Shown piece after piece: positions 53,185 to 56,078 of a DNA stretch of 64,000 nt. The position numbers were made by a program, and so were the translations under genes. Position 1 is the stretch's first letter. Each line of letters begins with the position of its first letter. The DNA comes from Atopobiaceae bacterium (GTDB lineage Bacteria > Actinomycetota > Coriobacteriia > Coriobacteriales > Atopobiaceae). Below the pieces are notes generated by a model. That model ran no database searches and was not told where the DNA came from. It worked only from the letters and a program-made list of their open reading frames with translations. The DNA is taken from NCBI GenBank assembly GCA_022483015.1, contig JAKVOB010000001.1, positions 744,001 to 808,000 on the forward strand, given 5' to 3'.

Positions 53185-53913
53185 ATGCCGATCCCCCGGC
53201 TCTCGGACATAGCCGATGACCTGCTCGAGCTCGCCTATCCCACGCGCTGCCTGGGATGCGACGACCCTGGGGAGCTGCTCTGTCCCGACTGCCGTGCCGC
53301 GCTTCCCTGGATAGCGCAGAGGTGGGCCTGTCCCACCTGCGGCGCCCCCTTCGGCTGGCTCACCTGCACGGAGTGCACCCATGACTGGGAGCCGCGTGCC
53401 ACCGTCTGCGCCCTCTCGCACGAGGGCACCGCCGCCCGCATGGTCGTCGGGCACAAGGACGCCCATGAGCGCAGGCTCGCCCCCGTGATGGCAGCCGCCC
53501 TTGCCTGCGCCCTGGACGAGGCTGCCGCCTGGCCGGCGGCAGACGGCCGTGCCCGCTTCGATGCCGAGTCGGTCGACGGAATCTGCTTCGTCCCGGCGTC
53601 ACCGGCCGCCTATGCCCGACGGGGCTTCGACCACATGGAGGCCGTGGCGCATGAGCTCGCGCGCTTCGAGGGGCTTCCCGTCATGGACGTCCTCGCGCGC
53701 CGTGATGCCGCGGACCAGCGCACGCTCGGCAAGGAGGCGCGCGCCCGCAACGTGTCGGGCACGTTCTTCCTGGCGGAGGAGGTGGCCGGTGTACGGCTCC
53801 TCCTCATCGATGACGTCGCCACCACGGGCTCGTCGGTCCGCTCCGCGGCAGCCACCCTGTTGGCCCATGGTGCCGGCGAGGTCACGGCCTGTACCTTCGC
53901 GCGGGTGTGGTGA
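53185..53913 (+). CDS. comFC: ComFC-family phosphoribosyltransferase-like protein
   Basis: 242 aa. N-terminal Cys-rich zinc region (CLGCDD, CPDC, CPTCGAP, CTEC; residues 23-70) followed by a type I phosphoribosyltransferase fold with the PRPP loop LLLIDDVATTGSSV (about 204-217) and ARRGFDHMEAVAHELA. ComFC is needed for DNA uptake or single-strand handling in competence. comFA is absent nearby. Start ATG follows GGGAGG. The downstream order comFC - RNA - hpf recalls the Firmicute comF-hpf neighbourhood. Confidence 0.88.
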   Translation: MPIPRLSDIADDLLELAYPTRCLGCDDPGELLCPDCRAALPWIAQRWACPTCGAPFGWLTCTECTHDWEPRATVCALSHEGTAARMVVGHKDAHERRLAPVMAAALACALDEAAAWPAADGRARFDAESVDGICFVPASPAAYARRGFDHMEAVAHELARFEGLPVMDVLARRDAADQRTLGKEARARNVSGTFFLAEEVAGVRLLLIDDVATTGSSVRSAAATLLAHGAGEVTACTFARVW

Positions 53914-54005
53914 GGCGGCCGCCCGACCACGTCCCCCCATCCTCCCTCGAGGCCTTGGAGCTTTTGTCGAACATGCTGCTAGCGCAGAAGGTCCCTTGAT
54001 CACAC

Positions 54006-54014
54006 TGCTATACT
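54006..54014 (+). promoter_or_regulatory. Extended -10 promoter of the structured RNA
   Basis: TGCTATACT (TGn + TATACT) at 54006-54014 predicts transcription from about 54020-54022, immediately before the first stem of the RNA. No good -35 lies at 17-base spacing, as is usual for extended -10 promoters. Confidence 0.6.
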
Positions 54015-54020
54015 TCAAAC

Positions 54021-54275
54021 GTTTCACCCAGGTCTGTGGTTGCGGGGGCGCAAGCCCCCTAGTCCATGGCAGACGAGGCCGAAGGGATCCACGTAAGCTG
54101 CTGCGTGCGCGCAGGGGCGATCATGGTTCGTCCTAGAAGTAAGTCGCACCGCCCGTCATACCAGAGGCATCCCGCCTCGCGGGCGAGAGGGTCAGTCGTG
54201 AAGGCACCGTGGTGCCCGAGCAAACGCCCCGGTGCGCGAGTGTGGGGGCAAAGACCAGGTCAGCTGGGTGGGATG
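54021..54275 (+). ncRNA. Structured RNA between comFC and hpf, probable raiA-motif RNA
   Basis: A 415-base non-coding gap holds a compact RNA-like element. A closing stem CACCCA (54025-54030) pairs with TGGGTG (54265-54270), and the next GGTCT (54031-54035) pairs with AGACC (54252-54256). Inside are clear hairpins: GGGGGC-GCAA-GCCCCC (54044-54059, GNRA loop), GAGGC-ATCCC-GCCTC (54164-54178) and GGCAC-CGTG-GTGCC (54203-54216). Length of about 250 nt, its own promoter, and position by hpf/raiA in a likely coriobacterium fit the raiA-motif RNA, an ncRNA class of Clostridia and Actinobacteria. Identity is inferred; no covariance search was run. Confidence 0.6.
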
Positions 54276-54328: not shown

Positions 54329-55327
54329 ATGAAGCGCAGGTCCTTCGTCGCCCTCCTCGGCGCATGTGTCGCAGGGGCACTCGCACTCCCGCTTGCGGGC
54401 TGCTCGTCAACCGGGGTCCTCTCGTCGCTCGGCCTTACCACGACCTCCGTCGACGACGCGCGCACGCAGGCGCAGGAGGCCGTCTCGCCCACGGTCACCA
54501 CCCCGACCATCGCCACGGACGGCACCCTCACGGTGGGGCTCCTCACCGAGTCCGAGTCCGCCCCCCTCTGCATCACCGACAAGGCCGATGCCGTGACGGG
54601 CATGGACATCGACATCGCCTCGGCCATCGCCGACGAGCTGGGGCTCTCGGTCAAGTTCGTCTCGGTCAGCTCCTCCACGTCCGGGTTGCAGTCGGGCTGT
54701 GACATCGTCATGGGGGCGACGAACGGTGCCGATGGGGTCAAGGTCGTGTCGACCTATGCCGAGAAGGCCACCTGCCTGTTCCACCAGGGCGTCGTGGGCG
54801 TCGCCACGACCAGCCAGCTCTCTGGCAAGACGGTCGCGGTGCAGGATGGGTCCGTGTCGCAGAACACCCTCTCCAAGACGAACCTCGTCACGACGCAGAA
54901 GACCTTCGGCAACCTCAACGAGGCCTTCGAGGCACTGAGCGCTGGGACCGTCGACTACGTCTGCTGTGACGCCTACTCGGGTGCCTATCTCGCGGCCACC
55001 TACAAGGGCATCACCACGGCAGGCACCATCGACGCGCCCACGTCCCTGGGCATCGGGGTCTCCTCGAGCAACTCGAGCCTCCAGACTGCCGTGGCCGGCG
55101 CCTACCAGGCCATCTCGCAGGACGGCCGGCTCGACCTCATCCGCACCCGATGGGTGGGCAGCATGGCCCAGCTCACCTCGTCGAGCCAGATCCAGGGGAT
55201 CACGTCCACGTCCACGTCGGCCGCCACCGGTTCGGCCGACTCGGCTGCGACCACCTCCTCGTCAAGTGGCAGCGACGGGTCGACGGCCGGTTCGAACGCG
55301 GTCGCGGCGGTCTCCTCTGCCAGCTGA
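54329..55327 (+). CDS. Orphan substrate-binding lipoprotein (amino-acid type)
   Basis: 332 aa. Signal 1-24 with RRSFVALLGA and lipobox LPLAGC (lipidated Cys about 25). The body (about 60-275) is an SBP_bac_3-type fold: LTVGLLTESESAPL, VTGMDIDIASAIADELGL, DIVMGAT and VDYVCCDAYSGAYL (lobe switch). A Ser/Thr/Ala-rich tail (280-332) replaces the usual end. No permease or ATPase gene is nearby. Start ATG 54329 follows AGGGAG; the upstream open frame runs into the RNA element. It may be translated from an mRNA whose leader is that RNA. Confidence 0.82.
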   Translation: MKRRSFVALLGACVAGALALPLAGCSSTGVLSSLGLTTTSVDDARTQAQEAVSPTVTTPTIATDGTLTVGLLTESESAPLCITDKADAVTGMDIDIASAIADELGLSVKFVSVSSSTSGLQSGCDIVMGATNGADGVKVVSTYAEKATCLFHQGVVGVATTSQLSGKTVAVQDGSVSQNTLSKTNLVTTQKTFGNLNEAFEALSAGTVDYVCCDAYSGAYLAATYKGITTAGTIDAPTSLGIGVSSSNSSLQTAVAGAYQAISQDGRLDLIRTRWVGSMAQLTSSSQIQGITSTSTSAATGSADSAATTSSSSGSDGSTAGSNAVAAVSSAS

Positions 55328-55492: not shown

Positions 55493-56078
55493 ATGGTGGA
55501 CATCAAGGTCTCTGGGCGCAAGACGACGGTCACAGAGCCGCTCCGCGAGTACGTTGACGAGAAGATCGGCGATGCCCTGAAGGTGTTCGAGATGCGGCCC
55601 ATGAGCTGCGACGTCGTACTCCGTGTGGAGAACAACCCCTCGAACCCCGATCGCTCGACCTGCGAGGTCACGGTCTTCGTGCGCGATGCCGTCGTACGTG
55701 TGGTCGCCACCGATCCCGACATGTACGCAGCCATCGACATCGCTGCCGACAAGGTCACCCGGCAGCTGCGCAAGTTCAAGACGCGCGTGGTCGAGCGCAA
55801 GCACCGCTCCGAGGGGCCTTCCCCCGCAGCCGCTCACCACGACGGACTACGCCGACCTCATCGACGAGAAGCCCGGGGACGAGGACGAGCTCGTCCGGGA
55901 GAAGGTCATCGACCTACCGCCGATGACCGAGGAGCAGGCCCTGGTCCAGACGGACCTCATCGGGCATGACTTCTATGTCTTCACCAATGCCGAGACGGGC
56001 CTCGTCAACGTCATCTATCACCGCCATAATGGCGGGTATGGCATCATCAAGCCCAAGATCGAGGAGTCGGATGAGTAA
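55493..56078 (+). CDS. hpf: Long-form ribosome hibernation promoting factor, interrupted by a frameshift
   Basis: HPF(long)/RaiA dimerises idle ribosomes into 100S particles. The N-terminal domain reads from ATG 55493 (GGAGG upstream): MVDIKVSGRKTTVTEPLREY through QLRKFKTRVVERKHR. The C-terminal dimerisation domain (DLPPMTEEQALVQTDLIGHD, NAETGLVNVIYHRHNGGYG) continues in the +1 frame to 56078. The switch lies at or near a five-C run (55820-55824). Reading four Cs gives one uninterrupted protein of about 195 aa. Without this, translation ends at 55969 after an unrelated Arg-rich tail. Possible causes are a sequencing indel, a true mutation or +1 frameshifting at CCC. The end overlaps degV by 8 bases. 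Confidence 0.85.

Follow-up and report, generated by a model that had tools for sequence, protein, structure and literature searches.

A raiA (ModT) RNA with its own extended −10 element directly precedes an SBP lipoprotein gene in an Atopobiaceae genome

Background

The raiA RNA, also called ModT, represents a structured RNA family (Rfam RF03072) that has already been reported in more than 2,500 species of Bacillota and Actinomycetota, with solved structures and knock-outs. The structures reveal a compact monomer (PMC11751092, PMC12286853). In C. difficile, deletion of the RNA raises c-di-GMP (PMC11706538), and loss of ModT leads to later stationary-phase entry and less sporulation. Complementation in trans has been reported for both C. 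difficile and C. acetobutylicum, and the occurrence of raiA/ModT in many non-spore-formers has been stressed in the same study (PMC11706538).

The surroundings of these RNAs have also been described. Published synteny values, quoted second-hand from Soares et al. (2024, PNAS), are 74% and 66% for a neighbourhood of comFC and hpf, respectively. According to the review PMC11477304, the discovery paper of 2017 already noted genes for periplasmic binding proteins behind raiA RNAs.

Identity and extent of the RNA

We analysed a 64,000-nucleotide stretch of DNA from an Atopobiaceae bacterium, called the window below. Relatives were sampled from what we take to be its class (Coriobacteriia) and family (Atopobiaceae). 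The features that matter here are as follows.

53185–53913, + strand: comFC, a ComF family phosphoribosyltransferase gene (domain matches PF18912 and PF00156)
54006–54014, + strand: extended −10 element TGC-TATACT, with a −10 in the corresponding place in all 41 loci aligned
54020–54275, + strand: raiA (ModT) RNA, from the RF03072 match and extra P1 pairs; P1 is longer by 3 bp than the Rfam ends
54020–54041, + strand: P1 5′ arm, pairing with 54253–54275
54044–54059, + strand: P2 hairpin, GGGGGC-GCAA-GCCCCC, with a GNRA (GCAA) loop (sequence and covariation)
54062–54088, + strand: P3a/P3b stem-loop, whose loop carries the pk-1 5′ strand, 54072–54077 (GACGAG) (alignment)
54097–54118, + strand: P5 hairpin (RF03072 model and covariation)
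54127–54132, + strand: pk-1 3′ strand (UUCGUC), partner of 54072–54077
54143–54237, + strand: P6-P7-P8 multi-stem domain (covariation), the larger 'variant 2' form as defined in PMC11751092
54253–54275, + strand: P1 3′ arm (covariation)
54329–55327, + strand: SBP_bac_3 (PF00497) lipoprotein gene, 332 amino acids, 56 nt past the Rfam 3′ end
55493–56078, + strand: hpf/raiA (long HPF), in two frames in the assembly, with PF02482 and PF16321 in different frames

The initial annotation, made from the DNA letters alone, proposed a raiA-motif RNA at 53996–54275 and named the Rfam covariance model as the way to check it. When the entire window is scanned with cmscan and Rfam 15, the result is a full-length RF03072 match (model positions 1–209) at 54023–54272 on the + strand, scoring 160 bits against a gathering cut-off of 101.3 (E = 3.8e-40). 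This is the sole match above a curated cut-off in the window, and the RNA occurs as a single copy in the source genome. Three additional covarying pairs (54020–54022 with 54273–54275) lengthen P1 beyond the Rfam ends, such that the RNA proper spans about 54020–54275. Thus, the proposed interval does contain the RNA, although it begins further upstream, at 53996. The RNA at 54020–54275 is an ordinary member of the known raiA (ModT) family.

Covariation of the conserved fold

Structural conservation was assessed by aligning 39 loci (RNA plus 6 nt of flank), which comprise the window, most sampled genera of its family and loci from elsewhere in the class. For P1 with its three-pair extension together with P2, 91.8% of cells are paired and 195 cells show double changes, compared with a shuffled mean of 72. 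The corresponding covariation score of 0.525 exceeds all 500 shuffles and every slid control (shuffled, 0.232; best slid control, 0.166). In outer P1 considered separately, 90.9% of cells are paired, and double changes occur in 12 of the 15 pairs. Pairing is yet more complete for P3, pk-1, P5, P6, P7 and P8 jointly (98.5% of cells), with 109 double-change cells versus 31 after shuffling; here too, covariation scores above all shuffles and slid controls.

The pseudoknot pk-1, which joins the P3 loop and the P5–P6 junction, is paired in all 39 sequences and has double changes in three of its six pairs. By comparison, the nucleotides of pk-2, a 2-bp element of the cryo-EM model, are nearly invariant in the aligned class loci, which leaves no covariation to be seen there. 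The helices of P6-P7-P8 are present and supported in the alignment.

These data bear out the structural details that had been read from the sequence. The nested complementary arms thought to close a domain of about 250 nt correspond to Rfam P1 (54023–54041 with 54253–54272), and compensatory changes are decisively present in the segments where they had been sought, 54025–54035 and 54252–54270. The 'at least three' internal hairpins are accounted for by P2, P5, P7 and P8, all of which covary in relatives, and the one with a GNRA loop is P2. It is the comparative evidence that carries the RNA claim, because single-sequence folding energy is unremarkable, being only mildly better than that of shuffled sequences (z = −1.74). 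Chance hairpins of GC-rich DNA are ruled out by the covariance-model match and the covariation.

Distribution among relatives

Matches to raiA were found in 136 of 140 family genomes (100 of 101 near-complete ones) and in 379 of 398 class genomes (310 of 316 near-complete); those above the cut-off number 135 and 376, respectively. Among genomes drawn from the phylum, 137 of 396 have a match. Six near-complete class genomes lack one, and at least three of these absences are assembly artefacts: in G043 the site coincides with a join between scaffolds, marked by a single N, and in G223 and G225 the SBP gene lies at a contig end. The other three (G188, G338 and G356) have no orthologous SBP gene either, as would also be expected if their assemblies had a gap at the locus. 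Separately, G076 carries two identically scoring matches on one contig (C56:38139 and C56:92886), possibly an assembly duplication.

The source organism had been singled out for carrying this RNA as a non-sporulating actinobacterium. That point does not hold, given that nearly all genomes of the class carry the RNA and that non-spore-formers already feature in PMC11706538. The raiA RNA here is not unusual as an instance.

Carriers that lack c-di-GMP enzymes

One proposed mechanism, put forward for C. difficile, is that the RNA acts by lowering c-di-GMP. It draws on the published c-di-GMP change in the C. difficile deletion (PMC11706538) and agrees with the presence of GGDEF (11 matches) and EAL proteins in the source genome. 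However, 147 of the 398 class genomes (125 of 316 near-complete) have no GGDEF match. Subtracting the RNA-less from the GGDEF-less genomes leaves 142 class genomes, 123 of them near-complete, that carry raiA and have no detectable GGDEF; in six of these, each a single contig (G022, G025, G039, G051, G055 and G058), EAL is also absent.

No c-di-GMP is made by cells that have no GGDEF enzyme. Judged from gene content, therefore, c-di-GMP control cannot be the function universal to raiA carriers, and as an account of how the RNA acts it appears highly improbable. It could nonetheless be a local function in some carriers. Likewise, Spo0A is absent from the class genomes tested, so sporulation is not a function common to all carriers.

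A conserved promoter-like element

The element TGC-TATACT is separated by 8 nt from the Rfam 5′ end and by 5 nt from the extended P1 stem. Across 41 aligned loci, a −10 hexamer matching at four or more of six positions is always found 7–14 nt (median 9) before the Rfam 5′ end, and 35 loci carry the TGn extension. The combination of TGn with a hexamer of at least five matches occurs in 29 of 41 loci, whereas shuffled upstream regions give a mean of 0.36 and a maximum of 3. The window contains no good −35 element, and −35 matches are poor across the 41 loci; a −35/−10 promoter was rejected, and the extended −10 element alone stands out. On both counts this agrees with the initial annotation. A start roughly 7 nt past the −10 element would coincide with the base of extended P1.

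Genes behind the RNA and their linkage

The RNA had been placed between comFC and hpf. The comFC side of this description is correct, since that gene ends 110 nt upstream, but hpf is not the adjoining gene: it lies 1.2 kb downstream, beyond the SBP_bac_3 gene. This arrangement is widespread. An SBP gene directly follows the RNA in 38 of 40 relatives and in 19 of 19 further ones (57 of 59, plus the window), with a spacer of 25–81 nt (median 39) in the first set of relatives; a few loci have longer spacers, reaching about 105 nt. The RNA–SBP linkage is known in outline; what is added here is its near-universality in the class, the tight terminator-free spacing and a common operon order.

That order, RNA-SBP-SBP-permease-ATPase(-hpf), is seen in deep families of this class; the Acidaminococcaceae, which belong to Bacillota, have the identical RNA-SBP-SBP-permease-ATPase-hpf order (permease 38% and ATPase 58% identical). 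It was seen in loci L087, L089–L093, L150, L153 and L157, with hpf next where the stretch is long enough. Either common descent or transfer of the entire locus would account for the shared order, which suggests that the lone SBP gene of the source genome is probably the remainder of a full uptake operon.

The SBP gene of the window is itself an orphan, with neither permease nor ATPase seen beside it. Inspection by eye suggests that the family consensus lacks the arginine usually present at the ligand-carboxylate site, and the lipoprotein may therefore bind a ligand other than a standard amino acid. Further downstream, the frame break in hpf falls close to a short C run at about 55815–55830, in the linker that joins the ribosome-binding domain to the dimerisation domain. 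In nearly all sampled relatives, the hpf near the RNA holds both parts in a single reading frame, so the break reflects either a mistake in sequencing or a recent mutation private to this genome.

Other lineages have other genes behind the RNA. In Clostridium the gene is hpf, often preceded by a terminator, and in Acidimicrobia it is a SecA-like gene (recognised by eye). Many uncultured Clostridia carry a PF13451 (zf_Tbcl, zinc-ribbon) gene of about 90 amino acids 31–87 nt behind the RNA, mostly with no terminator between them (L097, L099, L113, L115, L121, L124, L131 and others).

Mode of action

Tight linkage to an uptake-type gene raises the prospect that the RNA of this class is mainly a cis-acting, riboswitch-like leader of the SBP gene or, in the deep lineages, of the SBP-SBP-permease-ATPase-hpf operon. 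Rfam classes RF03072 as cis-regulatory, and the SBP start mostly lies 25–85 nt behind the RNA in the 57 of 59 relatives. In one family the linkage holds in 13 of 13 loci, even though comFC is mostly inverted and hpf was not found within 4.5 kb of the RNA. The operon order shared with the Acidaminococcaceae, of another phylum, points the same way.

An expression platform was looked for behind the RNA. The window contains no intrinsic terminator there. A terminator-like element before the SBP start is absent from 57 of 58 spacers and weak in the remaining one, and matches in seven relatives fall within the SBP reading frame; this candidate was rejected. So was a translational switch, since pairing of the Shine-Dalgarno sequence with the RNA domain is predicted in just 4 of 35 cases. 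Neither a terminator/antiterminator nor consistent Shine-Dalgarno sequestration, as a riboswitch would use, is thus recognisable. The loci of one family of the order (L274–L281) have a longer RNA–SBP spacer, in which a GC-rich hairpin is often present; this hairpin has no clear T run and may be a weak attenuator.

Retention of the RNA is also informative. Two genera (G049 and G114/G117) keep the RNA and have only distant SBP paralogues, the orthologous SBP gene being absent; hpf lies directly behind the RNA in G049 and G114. This is what should be seen of a trans-acting RNA, and the presence of raiA RNAs before genes that differ by lineage (hpf, SBP, PF13451 and SecA-like) also counts for action in trans, as does the clostridial complementation (PMC11706538). 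A missing terminator and 57-of-59 linkage to one gene family would be equally expected of a cis leader. The lack of an expression platform, together with the loci that have the RNA but no orthologous SBP gene, weakens the leader explanation, which we consider unlikely.

We therefore favour, with reasonable confidence, a single-copy raiA/ModT gene with its own extended −10 promoter, whose structured RNA product would be abundant, act in trans and, in this organism, share a transcript with the SBP gene. Transcription would start at about 54020 from this housekeeping-type promoter, and the transcript would fold into the conserved compact core of P1–P8 and pk-1. With no recognisable terminator behind the RNA, this transcript is expected to extend through the SBP_bac_3 gene and possibly as far as hpf; the mature RNA would then have to be set free by processing or partial termination in the source organism. 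As an abundant, stable and probably protein-bound molecule, it would act in trans to time the transition from exponential to stationary phase. Abundance, stability, trans action and the growth-phase phenotype are properties taken from clostridial experiments, and in this organism the effector may be something other than c-di-GMP.

Two further possibilities concern the RNA itself. It could be a ribozyme or RNA-processing factor, as proposed in PMC11706538 and PMC11751092; the compact pseudoknotted fold with invariant junctions would suit such a role, but cleavage activity is not reported in the ModT papers cited here, and we judge this very unlikely. There is a small chance that in this class and the Acidaminococcaceae the RNA is a dual element, namely a stable trans RNA that also serves, on the same transcript, as a sensor leader of hpf and of an uptake module of the amino-acid type, either SBP alone or SBP-SBP-permease-ATPase. 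In that case, the RNA would tie ribosome hibernation to nutrient status independently of c-di-GMP.

Comparison with known systems

The search for a function is narrowed by these data, because neither c-di-GMP control nor sporulation is common to all raiA carriers. With those functions excluded as universal, small non-sporulating genomes devoid of GGDEF offer a clean setting in which to look for a direct partner. Given how steadily the RNA-SBP(-permease-ATPase)-hpf arrangement recurs, starvation or nutrient uptake is the prime candidate process.

Compared with the raiA/ModT family in general (RF03072), the locus agrees in its full-length match, P1–P8, pk-1, single copy number, upstream comFC and own promoter. 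It differs in having no intrinsic terminator and an SBP gene in place of hpf directly behind the RNA. C. difficile ModT (PMC11706538) shares the fold, a housekeeping-type promoter of its own and comFC upstream. Nevertheless, it lacks P2, which is present here, and it has a −35/−10 promoter, an intrinsic terminator and a PTS operon downstream, whereas the RNA described here has an extended −10 element, lacks a −35 and is separated from the SBP gene by no terminator. The locus resembles riboswitch leaders in that a structured RNA lies just before an uptake-type gene, presumably on one transcript. Unlike them, this RNA has no recognisable expression platform, and the clostridial evidence favours action in trans.
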